Of a DNA stretch of 36,647 nt, positions 1,242 through 29,793 are shown one piece after another. Under the pieces are notes generated by a model that saw only the letters and a program-made list of their open reading frames with translations, made no database searches and was not told the origin of the DNA. Source of the stretch: a virus; IMG/VR virus record IMGVR_UViG_3300010354_000014, positions 1 through 36,647 of that record; one strand, given 5' to 3'. Positions within the stretch are counted from its first letter, which is position 1. Each line of letters starts with the position of its first letter. The position numbers and the translations under genes were made by a program.

Positions 1242-3401
1242 ATGGGTGTTTTGGACGGACAGGCAGTTTCAGCGGGCGTTACTAACCCGGCGTTCATTGA
1301 CGCAAACGCGGACGATACCGGCGTCGGAAAATACACGCTCGCGAACACCGAGGCGGTTTCGGGTGCAACCGTGGACAACGTGCAAGCCGAAGCAAACTCG
1401 GCGGCGTCGTTCATGGGAAAATCGCTCAACTCCGCAAAGGACGACTTGCCCGCCTGGACGACCTCGGTTGTCGGGTCGGCATCCGATCCGCTTTTTGATC
1501 GCGCCGACGCGCTCACCGAACGATTCGTGGCGGCAACCGGACACACTCACGACGGAACCGACGGTGAAGGCCCGCAAATCCTCGCGGCCAATCTGGACGC
1601 CGTTCCGCTCAAAGGTTACGTCGCTCAAGGCACGAACTTTTCAACGGGTACAGGCTCCTCCGTTATCGTCACGGGCATCATGACCGGAAAAACGCCGGGC
1701 GGCTCAACCGTGGCCGAAGGCGTCGTCACCACGGGCGCATATAACCGCGTCATCATGCGACAGGCGACCGGCGCGGAGGCGGGTGACGCATTCACCGACG
1801 CGCTCGGAAATGAAGTGTATGGCCGGTTGACCGAAGCGGCGGGCGTGTGGACGATTTCATTTTTCACCGACGTTTCCGGCGTCGAAACGGCGTACACGTT
1901 TGCGTCGTCGGCAAGTTCGCGCTGGTATTATCAGGAAATTTTTAACCCAATGGGCGGGAACGCGCCCGTGTTCTCGGAGTTTGCGAGCATTCCGAGTGAC
2001 AACGCGACTGCGGACGTCATTCCAGCAACCACGACGCTACAAGGGAAAGTGTCACTTTCTGCGAGCGCACCCGGTGCGATTGCCTCGACGGGAAGCGCGG
2101 GGACGGCGACGGCAAGCGTCGCAAACGCCGATCACACACACGAAGGATTGCATTCGATTGCAAAGTCAGGCGATCCGCAAATCAAAGGTGATGCAACCCT
2201 TTCGGCTTCGGGCGGTGTGACGCTCACGCAATCACTAAACGATATTCAAATTTCCGGACCCGCGCTCGCGTCAACTGCGCCGTCGGCAGTTGGAAGCGCA
2301 AACAGCGTTGGGACTGGCACGACAAGCGCGCGCGCCGATCACGTTCACGAGGGCGTCCATTCGGTCGGATTGTCAGGCGATCCGGACCTTTACGGCGACG
2401 TCACGCTTGCGGCAAGCGGTGGAACCTCGGCAGTTCAGGCCGGGCAAACAATCACGTTTTCAAGTCCTGCGCTCACGACTAACGCACCGTCGGACGTGGG
2501 TTCGACTGCGGCGGTTGGAACCGGGACGGCCTCGGCGCGTGAGGACCACGTTCACCGAGGCGTGACGTCGGTTGCGAAAAACGGGTCGTCGCAGCTTTTT
2601 GGAAACGTGACGCTTTCGGCTGGGAGCGGCATCACGATCAATCAGGTTGCCCAGGACATTCAAATTGTAAACGATATTGGCGGCCTCTCAAGCGCGACCC
2701 CGCAGGACGTGGGCGCAACGGCGAGCGCGGGAGTATCGGCAAGCGCATCACGTGACGATCACGTCCACGAGGGATTGCATTCGATCGCAAAGTCGGGGAG
2801 TTCTCAAATCGTCGGCGACGCGACGCTTTCGGCCTCGGGCGCAATCACGCTGACGCAAACGGTAAACGACATTCAAATTTCCGCACCGGCAACGGACACG
2901 GTTACAACTCCGCAGGACGTGGGGAGCGCAGGAAGCCCAGGCGTTTCGACTTCTCCTGCGCCCGCCGATCACGTTCACGAGGGCGTCCATTCGGTTTCAA
3001 AAAATGGGAGTTCGCAGATTTTTGGGGACGTGACGCTTTCGGCGGGTTCAAACGTCACAATTACACAAGTCGGAAACGACATTTCATTTTCAGCAACCGC
3101 ACCGGGCGCGGGCGCGGTTGAATCACCGGCCTCTTATCCCGTAACCTTGAGCGCGTCGGATGACGGAAAAACATTGTTAATCGACACGTCGGCCGCACGA
3201 ACAATCAATGCGTTTGCGGCATCGGCGAATTTCAGAATCACAATCAAAGATAAAACGGGAACTGCGCAAATCTATCCGATCACGTTCGTTCGTTCAGGCT
3301 CACAGAAAATCGAAGGACTTTCGGCCAACTATGTCATGGAAGCAAATTGGGGCGAGTGGGGCCTTGCGTTTGACGGAACCGATTGGTTTTTGAGCAATTG
3401 A
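1242..3401 (+). CDS. Tail fibre with tandem DH.H repeats (719 aa)
   Basis: The start is ATG 1242, preceded by AAGGGGA. The N-terminal third is low-complexity Ala/Thr/Ser/Gly-rich sequence containing one H-T-H-D-G motif. Residues about 297-618 hold five imperfect repeats of roughly 60-70 aa, each opening with DH(T/V)HEGxHS or a close variant and continuing as G(D)xTLSA and (N)DIQIS. Such short beta repeats with paired histidines are typical of trimeric phage fibres, where HxH motifs can bind metal on the trimer axis. The last 100 residues (PASYPVTLSASDDGKTLLID to DWFLSN) resemble a fibre tip domain. It probably acts in host recognition, next to the RCC1 protein that follows after seven bases. 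Confidence 0.8.
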   Translation: MGVLDGQAVSAGVTNPAFIDANADDTGVGKYTLANTEAVSGATVDNVQAEANSAASFMGKSLNSAKDDLPAWTTSVVGSASDPLFDRADALTERFVAATGHTHDGTDGEGPQILAANLDAVPLKGYVAQGTNFSTGTGSSVIVTGIMTGKTPGGSTVAEGVVTTGAYNRVIMRQATGAEAGDAFTDALGNEVYGRLTEAAGVWTISFFTDVSGVETAYTFASSASSRWYYQEIFNPMGGNAPVFSEFASIPSDNATADVIPATTTLQGKVSLSASAPGAIASTGSAGTATASVANADHTHEGLHSIAKSGDPQIKGDATLSASGGVTLTQSLNDIQISGPALASTAPSAVGSANSVGTGTTSARADHVHEGVHSVGLSGDPDLYGDVTLAASGGTSAVQAGQTITFSSPALTTNAPSDVGSTAAVGTGTASAREDHVHRGVTSVAKNGSSQLFGNVTLSAGSGITINQVAQDIQIVNDIGGLSSATPQDVGATASAGVSASASRDDHVHEGLHSIAKSGSSQIVGDATLSASGAITLTQTVNDIQISAPATDTVTTPQDVGSAGSPGVSTSPAPADHVHEGVHSVSKNGSSQIFGDVTLSAGSNVTITQVGNDISFSATAPGAGAVESPASYPVTLSASDDGKTLLIDTSAARTINAFAASANFRITIKDKTGTAQIYPITFVRSGSQKIEGLSANYVMEANWGEWGLAFDGTDWFLSN
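2130..3096 (+). repeat. Five DH.H fibre repeats
   Basis: Imperfect coding repeats of about 200 bp, each starting with a GATCAC(A/G)T(C/T)CACGAGG-like sequence that encodes DHVHEG (variants DHTHEG, DHVHRG). Units begin near 2130, 2337, 2547, 2757 and 2967. Identity between units is highest around the histidine motif and the TLSA segment and low in between, which suggests old duplication with divergence. Confidence 0.75.
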
Positions 3402-3408
3402 GGAAATC

Positions 3409-4728
3409 ATGGGAAAAAATAGAATTGTAAAAACGCTAACGGGTTCAGGGACGTTTACGGTTCCGGCGGGTGTGACTCAGATTTCCGTTTATTCTCGTTT
3501 TGGCGATGAAAAATTATCGCCGGTCAATGTAGGATTTCTAAGTACGGTTGCCCATACTCAAACGGGACAAGCGTATAGCTGGGGAGATAACAGAGACGGC
3601 CAACTTGGAGACGGCACTATTATTGATAAATCAAGTCCGGTCGCCGTGGTTGGCGGATATTCATTCGTGAGTGTCACCGGAGGAGGTAGCGCAGGGACGG
3701 GATTTACTATTGGCTTAACCGCATCCGGTCAAGCGTATGGTTGGGGATTGAACACATCTGGGCGACTTGGGGACGGCACGACGGTAACAAAATCAAGTCC
3801 GGTCGCCGTGGTTGGCGGGTATTCGTTTAATCAGATTTCTTCTGGGGTATCACACACGTTAGCATTAACCGATTCTGGTCAAGCATATGGTTGGGGAGCA
3901 AACACAAACGGTGTTATCGGAGACGGAACAATTGTAAGTCGCTCAAGTCCGGTCCCCGTGGTTGGCGGGTATTCATTTATTCAGGTTTCGTGTAGCTCGT
4001 CGTCCTTTGGCTTAACCGCATCCGGTCAAGCGTATGCTTGGGGAAACAATGGCACTGGCCAGCTTGGGGACGACACCCTTGTTAGTAAATCAAGTCCGGT
4101 CGCCGTGGTTGGCGGGTATTCGTTTATTCAAATTTCTGCCGGGGGAAGTCATACGCTAGGATTGACGGCATCCGGTCAAGCGTATGCTTGGGGAGCAAAC
4201 ACGTCGGGCCAACTTGGGGACGACACCCTTGTTAGTAAATCAAGTCCGGTCGCCGTGGTCGGCGGGTATTCGTTTATTCAAGTTTCAGCCGGAGGCTCAA
4301 ATTCTTTTGGATTAACGGCATCCGGACAATTATATGGTTGGGGATTTAATAGCAGCGGTCAAATCGGTGATGGCACGGTTATAAGAAGATCAAGTCCGGT
4401 CGCCGTGGTTGGCGGGTATTCGTTTATTCAAGTTTCAGCCGGAAGCGGCGGAACTAATAGCGCAATCTCTGTTGAAGGACGCATTTATTCGTGGGGCCAA
4501 AACGTAAACGGTATAATAGGGGACGGAACGATTGTACCGAAATCAAGTCCGGTTGCCGTGGTTGGCAATTTGTTTTTTTCGGTTATTCCGCCGTTAACGC
4601 TGCGATGTTCAATCACTGTTAGACCGGGCGATTCAATCGGATATAAAACAGGGTTGGCCAGAACGTATTTTGGGCAAGCGGTTTTCAATACGGATATTTC
4701 GGAATTTGTTGTCGAATATTTTGCTTGA
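3409..4728 (+). CDS. RCC1-repeat beta-propeller tail protein (439 aa)
   Basis: The start is ATG 3409, after the short leader GAGGAAATC. The N-terminus (GSGTFTVPAGVTQISV) is a motif common at the start of glycine-rich phage tail proteins. Residues about 52-395 are seven tandem repeats of about 50 aa with the pattern GQAYxWGxNxxGQLGDGT, then SSPVAVVGGYSFIQVSAG and LTAS, which matches RCC1 repeats. Seven repeats equal one seven-bladed RCC1 propeller. The C-terminus (residues about 400-439) returns to tail-type beta sequence. The propeller therefore appears inserted in a tail-protein frame and may be a receptor-binding head. The gene uses more TTA, AAT and ATA codons than its neighbours, suggesting separate acquisition. 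Confidence 0.85.
   Translation: MGKNRIVKTLTGSGTFTVPAGVTQISVYSRFGDEKLSPVNVGFLSTVAHTQTGQAYSWGDNRDGQLGDGTIIDKSSPVAVVGGYSFVSVTGGGSAGTGFTIGLTASGQAYGWGLNTSGRLGDGTTVTKSSPVAVVGGYSFNQISSGVSHTLALTDSGQAYGWGANTNGVIGDGTIVSRSSPVPVVGGYSFIQVSCSSSSFGLTASGQAYAWGNNGTGQLGDDTLVSKSSPVAVVGGYSFIQISAGGSHTLGLTASGQAYAWGANTSGQLGDDTLVSKSSPVAVVGGYSFIQVSAGGSNSFGLTASGQLYGWGFNSSGQIGDGTVIRRSSPVAVVGGYSFIQVSAGSGGTNSAISVEGRIYSWGQNVNGIIGDGTIVPKSSPVAVVGNLFFSVIPPLTLRCSITVRPGDSIGYKTGLARTYFGQAVFNTDISEFVVEYFA
3565..4569 (+). repeat. Seven tandem RCC1-coding repeats, about 150 bp each
   Basis: A near-identical core, TCAAGTCCGGTCGCCGTGG, recurs at 3631, 3793, 3943 (one base changed), 4090, 4240, 4390 and 4543 (one base changed). Spacings are 162, 150, 147, 150, 150 and 153 bp, all multiples of three. 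Units 4 and 5 are close to identical over most of their length, including the GGGGACGACACCCTTGTTAG segment. The DNA-level identity implies recent duplication or gene conversion between blades. Confidence 0.9.
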
Positions 4729-4759: not shown

Positions 4760-5806
4760 ATGGAAAAAAACGCTCGCGACTTAATGCCGACGCCGAAAAT
4801 CAATCCGTTCGACTTCATGGCGAAAAGTCGCGACGTCGTGCAAGTCCCGGCGCATATGGTTCCAGCGTTCAACGTGTGGAAAGCGTTTGAAGAGGGTAAA
4901 AGCCGCCGCTTTTTGATTAACACCTGGGGAGGGCTTGGCGATCAAATTTGCGCGGAACCCGCGATCCGCTGGGCGACTAAGAACTTTCCTAAGTGTGAAA
5001 TTTCAATTTCGAGTCGAACGCCGTCGATTTTCTCGCACCTAAAGTTCCATGAGGTTTTCGATACACGCGATGAAAAGTCATTTCCAAAATGGAATGATTT
5101 TTTGGTTTTTCAAACGATCGTGGAGCCCGAGCATATTCTATGGCAATTTGCGTCGCATATGCTCACGCATTGCGTGGACTTTCCTGCGCTTTCAATGTGG
5201 CGCATGACACTCCCGATTGCTGAAAAGGAAATTGTCCTTCCTGACTTTGAAATGACGGAGCAAATACGTTCCGCATTGTCGGAGCGCGAGCGGACGATTG
5301 TGTTTCATCCGGGCCGACATTGGCCGTCAAAGACCTTTCCGAAAACGTGGTGGGATTCTCAAATCAAAGCGTTTCAAGCGCGAGGCTTTAAGGTTTGTTT
5401 GATCGGCGCACACGTTGATGAAAACGTGGGTTACGTTGACGTTGACGCGACGGATTGCATTGACTTGCGCGATCGTCTTTCCATTCCCGAGTTTGTTTCG
5501 TTGCTGAAAAATTGCGCTTATCTTTTTTCCAATGATTCATCGCCGATTCATGCGGCGGCGGCGGGTGACGCATTTATTGGATTTGTCGCAAGCGTAAAAC
5601 ACCCGGACTACATTAAGCATTGGCGGAAAGGCCAATGGGCATGGAAAACGAAAAACTTTGAGCGTGACGGCGCATGGAACCACGTCGATCAAAACCCGGC
5701 TCAAAAGGATGAAATCAAAATTGAGTCGTTGCCGCCTGGACTCATGGACGCCTTGTTGCCGAACCCGGAAGAGGTTGCGGCGTATTACGCGGCGGTGCGC
5801 GGGTGA
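4760..5806 (+). CDS. Glycosyltransferase family 9 (heptosyltransferase-like)
   Basis: The product has GT-B, ADP-heptose transferase-type motifs. Residues about 53-72 read NTWGGLGDQICAEPAIRWAT, matching the N-terminal GLGD...PAIR motif. Residues about 183-194 read HPGRHWPSKTFP, the P-G..WPSK..P nucleotide-sugar motif. Residues near 257 read NDSSPIHAAAA, matching the D(T/S).P.H.AAA donor-binding motif. The length (348 aa) fits the family. Known members add heptose or related sugars to lipopolysaccharide core. Here the target could be host LPS or a virion protein. ATG 4760 is chosen because the longer frame needs a TTG at 4670 inside the RCC1 gene; no good ribosome site precedes either, and ATG 4784 is another option. 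It overlaps the next gene by four bases. Confidence 0.8.
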   Translation: MEKNARDLMPTPKINPFDFMAKSRDVVQVPAHMVPAFNVWKAFEEGKSRRFLINTWGGLGDQICAEPAIRWATKNFPKCEISISSRTPSIFSHLKFHEVFDTRDEKSFPKWNDFLVFQTIVEPEHILWQFASHMLTHCVDFPALSMWRMTLPIAEKEIVLPDFEMTEQIRSALSERERTIVFHPGRHWPSKTFPKTWWDSQIKAFQARGFKVCLIGAHVDENVGYVDVDATDCIDLRDRLSIPEFVSLLKNCAYLFSNDSSPIHAAAAGDAFIGFVASVKHPDYIKHWRKGQWAWKTKNFERDGAWNHVDQNPAQKDEIKIESLPPGLMDALLPNPEEVAAYYAAVRG

Positions 5807-12654: not shown

Positions 12655-13560
12655 GTGGCACGAATTAACATTGACGATTCAATTTTTACCGACACGCGGT
12701 TTCTGAAGCTGGTCGTACACCTGGGCAGTATGCCCGCCGCGCTCGGGCACCTATGCCACGCATGGATCGTCGCGCAGCGTTACTATCTCACCGAAAGCCG
12801 CATGATCCCGAGGACTGCATGGGACGCGCAGGAATTACACGGCGCATTGATCGACGTGGGCCTTGCGGAAGTTGTCGGCGATCACGTCCGCATGAAGGGG
12901 AGCGACGCTCAATTTGCGTGGCTACTTCAACGCTCTAACGCGGGGCGACTCGGGGGGGCGAAACCAAAAGCAAGCGACCGAAAGCGACCGTTAACGACCG
13001 AAAGCGGCCGCTTAACGGACGGAAGCGGGAGCAAGCCTCTTTCTCTTTCTCTTTCTCATAAACCTAAGATTAAAAACTTAAAGTCTATCCTAACGGAGCA
13101 CGAAAAACCGAAAACCGGGGATGCGGGACTGCGTCCCGAAACCGCCGTCGCGGTTTCACCCGTTGAGGCTCAGGAAAAATTTTTAATCCCTGAACAGCCG
13201 AAAGCCGCTGGTCAGGGGAAAGCCGAGTCGGCGCAATGGCTCATCGCGGCGTGGATCAAAGCGTTTCAACTCCGATTTCCCGGCCAGCGTCCGGCCGAAC
13301 TCTCGGACCCGAAGGTGATCGGGCAAATGCGCTTGTTCGCCCGCACGATCGAGAATCGGGACCGCGTCGCCGAACTCATGCAAATTTTTTTTCAAATTGA
13401 GGACGATTGGTTTAAAAAGCGCGGGTGGGCGTTTGAGACGTTCCGCGCGAATCTCAATCGCATCGGCCAGGCGAGGGATGCGGGCGAGGACGTTTCGGGG
13501 TCGGGTGTGAACTGGGCGAAACTGCGAGCCGAGTTCGAGAGTCGAGGGGAAATCGAATGA
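12655..13560 (+). CDS. Replication initiator / replisome organiser (301 aa)
   Basis: The start GTG 12655 has CGGAGG four bases upstream. The N-terminal domain (residues about 1-100) looks like the winged-helix domain of phage replication proteins: INIDDSIFTDTRFLKLV, LITESRMIP-like, LIDVGLAEVVGDHV, ending in the typical QRSNAGRLGGAKPK. Residues about 103-180 are a low-complexity linker whose DNA carries iteron-like repeats. The C-terminal domain (about 195-285, AQWLIAAWIKAFQLRFPGQR and WAFETFRANLNRIGQA) is helical, as in proteins that load helicase. The layout parallels lambda O, with the origin inside the gene between two domains. Specific partners are not known. Confidence 0.75.
   Translation: MARINIDDSIFTDTRFLKLVVHLGSMPAALGHLCHAWIVAQRYYLTESRMIPRTAWDAQELHGALIDVGLAEVVGDHVRMKGSDAQFAWLLQRSNAGRLGGAKPKASDRKRPLTTESGRLTDGSGSKPLSLSLSHKPKIKNLKSILTEHEKPKTGDAGLRPETAVAVSPVEAQEKFLIPEQPKAAGQGKAESAQWLIAAWIKAFQLRFPGQRPAELSDPKVIGQMRLFARTIENRDRVAELMQIFFQIEDDWFKKRGWAFETFRANLNRIGQARDAGEDVSGSGVNWAKLRAEFESRGEIE
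12971..13026 (+). repeat. Iteron-like 10-bp tandem repeats, candidate origin
   Basis: Five and a half units with helical spacing: CAAGCGACCG, AAAGCGACCG, TTAACGACCG, AAAGCGGCCG, then CTTAACGGAC and GGAAGCGG. Phased differently they alternate ACCGAAAGCG and ACCGTTAACG. The period of 10 is not a multiple of three, so the encoded residues (SDRKRPLTTESGRLTDGS) do not repeat; the repetition exists at DNA level only. This suits binding sites for the initiator. Confidence 0.7.
13036..13093 (+). other. Polypyrimidine mirror tract and AT-rich stretch, candidate unwinding element
   Basis: Bases 13036-13057 are 22 uninterrupted pyrimidines; 13037-13057 (CTCTTTC repeated, 21 nt) is a perfect mirror repeat able in principle to form a triplex. 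It is followed by 13058-13090, about three-quarters A/T. Iterons, then a melting-prone tract, is the arrangement of lambda-type origins. The tract encodes SLSLSLSH and the following basic residues of the linker. Confidence 0.5.
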
Positions 13561-27718: not shown

Positions 27719-29793
27719 AGAAACTCGGAAAACCTTTTCGTACACCCGACGGCCCGAAAAAGTTTTCCGTGTATGTAAAAAACGACAAGGGAAACACGGT
27801 TAAAGTCAATTTTGGCGACCCTGAAATGGAAATCAAAAGGGACGATCCAAAGAGACGAAAGGCATTCCGCGACCGTCACGGATGCGATGAACCGGGACCG
27901 CGTTGGAAGCCGAAATACTGGTCGTGCAAATTGTGGAGTGGAAAACCCGTGGGGAAAATTATTAAGGGCGAATCGGAAGCGAAAACGGTTGAACCCGAAT
28001 GGGTTGCCGATGAGGAAGTGTGGAACCGCGCGAAAAAGGCCGCAAAGAAGGGTGACGCTGAATCCCCGTGGGCGTTAACGACCTATCTATACAAGCGCAT
28101 GGGCGGAAAGATTGAGCCGAAGGAAGCGGCAACGGGAAAGGCCGCGCAACCCGGTATTCGCGTTCCGTTTTGGTTTTACGGAACCGAGGCGTTCGTCAAA
28201 CTGCACGGCAAACGCGGCGAGGCATCCGGCGACAAGGCCGAACTCCCGCCGAAAGCAACCGGCCAGGCGGACGTTGACGCTAAGGTTCAAAAACTGCTTG
28301 TTGATACGCCGGACCTTCCGGCGAATGCATTGGTTCAAGCGTTGAAATCCCAAGGGATTGAACTCGTGGACACGACGGCCGAAGCGGATTCGGCAACGAG
28401 TCACGGCGAATTGCAACGCGAAAGCACGGGCGGCATCGCCGTTCGAGCGACCTTCATAGAGTCGTCTTATCGTGACGACGGAATTGGTCCGACGCGGTTC
28501 AAAGTCGCATTGATTCAAGAGGGACTGGGCAATCTCAAAGACGCTTTTTACTACACCCGCGCCGCGCTTGAGTCGGGCATTCAGGCATTCGAGGGGAAAA
28601 AGTGTTTCGCCGATCACCCGTCGCGTTCTGAAGAGAGTGACCGGCCCGAGCGTTCGGTCCGAGACATTGTCGGTCATTTTGAAAACTGCCGACTTGAGGA
28701 ACGGGAGGACGGCGGCGCGATTCTTTGCGCGGAACTCGTAATGCTTCCGACACCTGCGAATCAATGGGCGCGGTCCCTTGTGACTCACGCGCTTGAATAT
28801 TCGAAACGCTATTCCGGCCAAGAATTTATCGGCCTTTCAATCAATGCCAGCGGTGACGCTCGGGCAATGCCGCTTGAGCAATTCGTAAAGGAAGGCGACA
28901 TTCCTTCCGAGGCCAAGCCAAAACTTTTTGACGCGCTTGAACGGGGCATTGAGACCGTTCGAGTGGTCGATTCAATTCGGGACGCCGTTTCGACTGATCT
29001 CGTTACGGAACCCGGTGCGCGGGGAAAGGTCCTCGAACTACTTGAAACTGAAAGGGATGAAACCATGAAAAAGAAAGTCACCGGGGAAAAAGTCCTCGAA
29101 GCGGAAAAGGAAATGAAAGCCGAAGAGATGAAGGCCGAGGAAATGAAAGCCGAGGAAATGAAAGCCGAAGCCGAGGACGGCGAAGAGGACCACGAGGACG
29201 TGGAAAAAGACAAAGCCCTCATTCTTTCCATGATTAAGAAACACATGGGCAAAGACGGCGAGGATCTCGACGAGGAAGCCGCCGCTGCCGCTTGTGAGGC
29301 TCACGAAGCATATTGCGAAATGGGGCAGGAAAGCGAAGAGGCCGCGAAACACGCCGCCGAAGCAATGAAACTTGCGAAGCATATGGCGAAAAAAGCCGAA
29401 GCCGCTGCGAAAGAATCCGACGCCGAAAAGGGCGAGGATGAGGAAAAGGTCGAGGAAGCAAAGGCAACCGAAAGCGAAGTCAAACTTGCTGCGCGGATTG
29501 CGTTTCTTGAGCGCAAGGTCAAAACCTATGAACTCGCGGAAACCCTCGACCGGAAACTTGCGGAGTCGAAACTGGGACGCGCTGAAACCGATAAGATTCG
29601 GACCCTGATTGGGACGCCGAAATCAGAATCGCAAATCGAACACACGATCAAAGTTTTCAAAGAAGCGTTTGGAATGGCGTCGGGAAGTGAGTCCCGTCCG
29701 TCGTTCGCGTCGCTTTTTGTTACCGGAACCGAAAAGCAAGCCGACGACGTTCACGGTGCCAAGGTGAATTTCGCCGAGTGCCTCAAGTTCTAA
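27715..29793 (+). CDS. Prohead protease-scaffold fusion (692 aa)
   Basis: ATG 27715 overlaps the previous stop. Residues about 4-75 (KFSVYVKNDKGNTVKVNFGD, later KPKYWSCKLW) form a conserved phage N-terminal module. Residues about 240-385 (IAVRATFIESSYRDDGIGPT, CFADHPSRSEESDRPERSV, GHFENCRL, GLSINASGDA) resemble a capsid maturation protease; candidate catalytic residues are the His of ADHPS and the Ser of GLSIN. Residues about 466-640 are a highly charged coiled coil, including four EEMKA-type repeats, that fits a scaffold, with a structured end (AARIAFLERKVKTYELAE). One protein would scaffold the shell and then process it. The protease class is not certain. Confidence 0.7.
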   Translation: MKKLGKPFRTPDGPKKFSVYVKNDKGNTVKVNFGDPEMEIKRDDPKRRKAFRDRHGCDEPGPRWKPKYWSCKLWSGKPVGKIIKGESEAKTVEPEWVADEEVWNRAKKAAKKGDAESPWALTTYLYKRMGGKIEPKEAATGKAAQPGIRVPFWFYGTEAFVKLHGKRGEASGDKAELPPKATGQADVDAKVQKLLVDTPDLPANALVQALKSQGIELVDTTAEADSATSHGELQRESTGGIAVRATFIESSYRDDGIGPTRFKVALIQEGLGNLKDAFYYTRAALESGIQAFEGKKCFADHPSRSEESDRPERSVRDIVGHFENCRLEEREDGGAILCAELVMLPTPANQWARSLVTHALEYSKRYSGQEFIGLSINASGDARAMPLEQFVKEGDIPSEAKPKLFDALERGIETVRVVDSIRDAVSTDLVTEPGARGKVLELLETERDETMKKKVTGEKVLEAEKEMKAEEMKAEEMKAEEMKAEAEDGEEDHEDVEKDKALILSMIKKHMGKDGEDLDEEAAAAACEAHEAYCEMGQESEEAAKHAAEAMKLAKHMAKKAEAAAKESDAEKGEDEEKVEEAKATESEVKLAARIAFLERKVKTYELAETLDRKLAESKLGRAETDKIRTLIGTPKSESQIEHTIKVFKEAFGMASGSESRPSFASLFVTGTEKQADDVHGAKVNFAECLKF
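29110..29169 (+). repeat. Four 15-bp tandem repeats encoding EEMKA
   Basis: Units GAAATGAAAGCCGAA, GAGATGAAGGCCGAG, GAAATGAAAGCCGAG and GAAATGAAAGCCGAA at 29110, 29125, 29140 and 29155. In frame, they extend the charged coiled coil of the scaffold part. The number of units could vary between isolates. Confidence 0.9.

Follow-up and report, generated by a model that had tools for sequence, protein, structure and literature searches.

The sequence analysed here, referred to as the window, is a virus record of 36,647 bases that is classed as linear. In this window, a gene encoding seven RCC1 repeats lies between a gene for a tail-fibre-like carrier and genes for a GT9-type glycosyltransferase and a probable methyltransferase (Table 1). 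The motif Y.WG.N..G..GD.T occurs seven times in the 439-aa product, at aa 56, 110, 160, 209, 259, 309, and 360, with a spacing of 49-54 aa. The Pfam RCC1 match covers seven stretches and is accompanied by a match to WD40_RLD (4.4e-66). With repeats of ~50 aa scoring above the Pfam cut-off, the protein belongs to the RCC1 repeat family (PF00415, PF25390), and it also matches phrog_4219, the profile of phage RCC1 proteins. A six-frame search recovered all seven copies singly and gave no match in 14 control genomes. Pfam, motif spacing, and six-frame search agree on the seven WG.N..G repeats reported in a preliminary description of this DNA, and the feature is genuine, well outside what chance would give.

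Table 1. Genes and protein segments of the propeller locus, in window coordinates
Feature	Position	Strand	Basis
Tail-fibre-like carrier, 719 aa, probable propeller mount	1242..3401	+	C-terminus matches related cassettes; mounting role putative
RCC1 propeller tail protein	3409..4728	+	439 aa; Pfam RCC1 2.3e-60, phrog_4219 1.8e-33, pLDDT 86.9
N-terminal end segment, aa 1-38 (GSGTFTVPAGV...)	3409..3522	+	shared by the 14 homologues aligned
Seven RCC1 blades, aa 39-383	3523..4557	+	motifs and spacing, tandem repeat finder, model
C-terminal end segment, aa 384-439 (ITVRPGDSIGY...FG...VEYFA)	4558..4725	+	conserved in homologues
GT9-type glycosyltransferase (phage-type, heptosyltransferase-like)	4760..5806	+	Pfam Glyco_transf_9 4.3e-12; directly downstream of propeller
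Methyltransferase, SAM-dependent (probable), 193 aa	5803..6384	+	overlaps GT9 stop; 48% identical to L086:8954-9529

The propeller gene had also been described as more AT-rich in codon use than its flanks, and this holds, third-position GC being 0.41 as against 0.51-0.65 in the other genes measured. The statement that its blades are nearly identical in DNA was overstated: pairwise identities are 55-83% for DNA and 40-86% for protein, with blade 7 the most divergent of the seven, and only the core, KSSPVAVVGGYSF, is kept largely to the codon. Among blades 1-6, pairs sharing a residue use the same codon in 87% of cases within this core, in 58% before it, and in 33% after it. This pattern looks like homogenisation of the core alone, by gene conversion, with variable loops between. 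Other compositional features of the window include an AT skew of 0.53 at 29001-29500, where a 15-base tandem repeat, GAAATGAAAGCCGAA, occupies 29110-29170 inside the ORF 27709-29793, and short tandem repeats of about 10 and 20 bases with the unit AAGCGACCGA at 12972-13028. Further, the gene at 21537-22736 encodes a ParB-like part fused to a DNA methyltransferase (phrog_498, 2.7e-97).

An AlphaFold2 model built with 14 homologues is a propeller (mean pLDDT 86.9), and its best PDB match in Foldseek is the plant photoreceptor UVR8 (TM 0.76/0.89, rmsd 1.6 Å), already found by sequence search (2e-44), followed by other RCC1 propellers. The seven-bladed fold anticipated for this protein is thus borne out by structure prediction. 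Both end segments lie outside the propeller in the model, the N-terminal one, with GSGTFTVPAG at aa 12-21, forming strands 5-11, 14-17, and 24-28, and the C-terminal one strands from 399-403 to 432-438. The two segments probably pair, forming one mounting domain. They had been called an N-terminal tail motif and a tail-type C-terminus; a pair of end segments conserved in this phage group is what stands of that assignment, and assignment to any known tail domain failed. The end segments of relatives gave weak PHROG tail matches, the best at 9e-4. We also considered the segments as the two halves of Gly_rich_2 (PF21722) and rejected this, as the joined segments gave no Pfam match and the window record contained none; the resemblance is an unproven likeness only.

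The evidence that this is a tail protein is indirect, and consists of its place in a tail gene block, the tail-fibre-like carrier upstream, and relatives detected in virions by mass spectrometry, namely three phrog_4219 proteins of phage W70 (PMC11370258) and GAP_001 of phage GAP32 (PMC5259590). In 8 of 12 related cassettes, the gene occupying this position matches the last 83-143 aa of the carrier (E 1e-11 to 7e-17). The carrier also has repeated DHVHEG motifs, and such histidine repeats, which some tail fibres also have, may bind metal. Phage records in general seldom contain RCC1: tblastn found it in 16 of 50,697, comprising freshwater T4-like cyanophages, T7-like Pseudomonas phages, Clostridioides phages, and others. 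Nevertheless, the view that an RCC1 propeller is unusual for a phage does not stand against these 16 records, the RCC1 relatives encoded in at least 567 IMG/VR pattern stretches, the virion relatives of W70 and GAP32, and the eleven copies of phAPEC6 (PMC7247149). RCC1 genes lie in the tail regions of S-SRM01, of BUCT-ZZ01, of the T7-like Pseudomonas phage PollyC, where RCC1 is part of an annotated tail fibre gene, of SeaP2, and of a Clostridioides phage. BUCT-ZZ01, a phage in culture whose host is recorded as Synechococcus elongatus PCC 7942, encodes the RCC1 protein UTS52180.1, and Synechococcus phage S-SRM01 encodes YP_010670310.1, YP_010670312.1, and YP_010670319.1. Some of the proteins are very large: a 2,227-aa ORF on a virus contig (L001:3032-9715) consists almost entirely of RCC1 repeats, with many propellers in one chain, and is followed by two glycosyltransferase-like genes, and in Clostridioides phage LIBA6276 a 1,627-aa RCC1 protein (L009:4750-9633) is surrounded by genes for tail fibres.

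The open frame of the enzyme gene downstream of the propeller runs from 4670, and its likely start is the ATG at 4760, 31 bases past the propeller stop. The product belongs to the GT9 family (PF01075; 46.3 bits, cut-off 22), and among proteins of solved structure LPS heptosyltransferase II comes closest to it in sequence (1.6e-5); the enzyme model has a pLDDT of 82.2. The catalytic motifs are retained throughout the 13 aligned homologues, which share TWGGLGD, HWxSKTFP, and NDSSPxH, with GGLGD and NDSSPxH as conserved donor-site motifs. The relative of the methyltransferase at L086:8954-9529 directly follows the L086 enzyme, with a weak match to Methyltransf_25 (0.008). By eye, a methyltransferase of the window type also comes after the enzyme in L190. 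In L085 and L096, the enzyme is followed by methyltransferases of the FkbM type.

The preliminary description missed the coupling between the propeller and the glycosyltransferase. As phage RCC1 proteins were already known, this coupling is the new point. IMG/VR was searched with the enzyme alone, so RCC1 was not part of the selection. In the first 12 distinct loci, which came from the initial enzyme searches of IMG/VR and from one contig of a bacterial MAG, an RCC1 propeller lay directly upstream of the enzyme in every case, either singly or in up to three copies; those propellers that were aligned had end segments resembling those of the window protein. L086:3446-7937 and L096:3385-7937 each contain three tandem RCC1 genes with the same end segments and a single downstream enzyme. 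A second enzyme seed gave nine judgeable loci, in which RCC1 was directly upstream in five, directly downstream in one, and at 2.5 and 4.1 kb in two, with one phage (L193/L194/L199) carrying the enzyme without RCC1; L198, which starts at the enzyme, was excluded from the count. Besides the window, RCC1 therefore lies within about 4 kb of the enzyme in 20 of 21 distinct loci, 17 times directly upstream, although these counts are not independent, since the cassettes may share descent. L094 seemed at first to be a locus without RCC1 and proved to have it intact in another frame. Two groups of matches were not accepted as cassettes: the Vibrio phage D505 group, with a weak GT9-like gene (2e-5) and no RCC1 annotated near it, and Salmonella/Escherichia matches in the phage collection, which appear to be the usual bacterial genes for LPS heptosyltransferases. 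At L196:5323-9488, a 538-aa two-part glycosyltransferase-like protein directly precedes an 848-aa RCC1 protein, in reversed order.

By blastp, the 12 first loci share with the window RCC1 (12/12), the enzyme (12/12), the carrier C-terminus (8/12), and the methyltransferase (1/12). Beyond the cassette only two genes were matched, both of L084, and ten of the records, several of them fragments, gave no match to the window terminase or 822-aa tail protein. What the window and the 12 loci have in common is essentially the cassette.

A second enzyme family shows a similar association. In aquatic T4-like phages, a TPR-glycosyltransferase stands near the RCC1 genes, its place being taken in BUCT-ZZ01 and L001 by a glycosyltransferase-methyltransferase fusion. 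The TPR-enzyme family was present in 50 of 69 RCC1-seeded loci, and RCC1 in 59 of 78 enzyme-seeded loci, in sets where contig ends truncate many of the loci and near-duplicates are included. In the phage record collection this family occurs in four records (three phages), all four among the sixteen with RCC1. RCC1 was not seen in the other 19 of the 78 loci, around which sulfotransferase-like and other glycosyltransferase-like genes were read by eye, some of these loci also lying near collagen-like tail proteins. The GT9 and TPR-enzyme families are distantly related (hhalign E 8e-5, probability 61), and the existence of two families suggests that the coupling to RCC1 originated, or was given a new enzyme, on more than one occasion. 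RCC1 tail proteins also occur with no annotated glycosyltransferase nearby, as in PollyC, SeaP2, and Clostridioides phage LIBA6276.

Many phages with little else in common carry a propeller gene accompanied by its own glycosyltransferase, which suggests that this part of the tail receives a phage-made sugar coat. Starting from what is observed, that is, the repeats, the fold, the gene order, and the linkage of the enzyme family to RCC1, itself rare among phage records, in all but one of the 21 other phage loci, we lean, with modest confidence, towards a tail-tip adhesin that is mounted on the 1242-3401 protein and would be glycosylated by the enzyme borne on the cassette. By analogy with its relatives, the 3409-4728 product would be a virion tail protein, likely held through its end segments by the carrier at the tail tip, where the propeller would touch the host surface and act as an adhesin. 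Before assembly, in the cytoplasm, the GT9 enzyme would most likely move a sugar from a nucleotide sugar, possibly ADP-heptose or another, to Ser/Thr residues of the propeller loops as its putative substrate, and the methyltransferase may cap the transferred sugar afterwards. We found no acceptor signature, because the [KR]SSP loop, tried as one, is as frequent where the enzyme was not seen, and its Ser/Thr content is equally high whether an enzyme lies nearby (0.97) or not (0.90). More generally, it seems to us an evenly balanced proposal that this is a mobile adhesin-glycosylation cassette spread across several tailed-phage backbones, comprising a mount, one to three end-segmented RCC1 propellers, a private GT9 or TPR glycosyltransferase, and a glycan-capping methyltransferase, in which the sugar on the propeller would tune host binding or hide the tip.

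Three other explanations were weighed. The enzyme may instead act on the host surface, adding or blocking a sugar on the LPS core or capsule and preventing superinfection or the loss of progeny on debris, and the two would then travel together because that surface is what the propeller binds. The kinship to LPS heptosyltransferase II, the other glycan genes of the TPR-enzyme loci, and the existence of phage glycosyltransferases that modify surfaces (PMC12619734) are all in keeping with this. We nevertheless consider it unlikely, as the enzyme directly adjoins the propeller in the tail block, unlike an early or lysogenic gene, and there is one enzyme per one to three propellers. A rather more doubtful explanation is that tail ends are hot spots for accessory genes, where RCC1 and the glycosyltransferase arrived together with no joint action. 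Methyltransferases, sulfotransferase-like genes, and other accessory genes do occur in the same region, and shared descent of the cassettes would fit as well; yet RCC1 is at 20 of 21 enzyme loci while the other genes are not shared, and the second enzyme family has a similar RCC1 linkage. Ordering of DNA inside the head, an idea raised by the phAPEC6 authors (PMC7247149) and in line with the nucleosome binding of eukaryotic RCC1 and the placing of RCC1 under DNA metabolism in PHROGs, is highly improbable for a gene that lies in a tail block with a tail-fibre-like carrier, encodes end segments that are conserved, and has a counterpart inside the annotated tail-fibre gene of PollyC.

Glycosylation of a tail-tip adhesin, the reading that we prefer, bears on how phage RCC1 proteins are understood. 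RCC1 is common in phages and yet is classed by PHROGs as DNA metabolism, 'regulator of chromosome condensation', and DNA ordering was put forward in one paper (PMC7247149). The partnership with glycosyltransferases points to a sugar-coated surface protein, and gives a large class of phage RCC1 proteins a testable role. Virion glycosylation would then extend from shells and tubes to the parts that contact the host. No description of a link between RCC1 and glycosyltransferases was found in the searchable literature, most subscription journals lying outside it.

The window protein shares the seven-bladed propeller of UVR8, HERC2, and RCC1 (TM 0.89 to UVR8 by target length) and differs from them in its viral tail context. 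Like the RCC1 proteins of W70, GAP32, phAPEC6, S-SRM01, and BUCT-ZZ01, it has RCC1 repeats and belongs with tail or virion proteins, and it is set apart from known phage RCC1 proteins by its conserved end segments, the adjoining GT9 enzyme, and a different phage backbone. Phage-encoded glycosyltransferases that sugar virion proteins are known from mycobacteriophages, where the targets are capsid and tail tube, and the accessible parts of these reports mention neither RCC1 nor a GT9 cassette (PMC12363180, PMC12619734). In bacteria, TibC heptosylates autotransporter adhesins, and the TibC/AAH heptosyltransferases are likewise GT9-like enzymes encoded with an extended surface adhesin (PMC4358343). 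The match of the window enzyme to the TibC/AAH profile is weak (E 0.41 in one search, absent with a larger profile), and with one invariant Cys in the 13-protein alignment it lacks the four-Cys iron finger of the TibC type. FlmG, a TPR and GT-B protein that O-glycosylates flagellins (PMC7591256), has a domain plan resembling that of the TPR-enzyme family at phage RCC1 loci; this family has the TPR part that is missing in the window enzyme. Even without the iron finger of TibC or the TPR part of FlmG, the window enzyme may still work like them.
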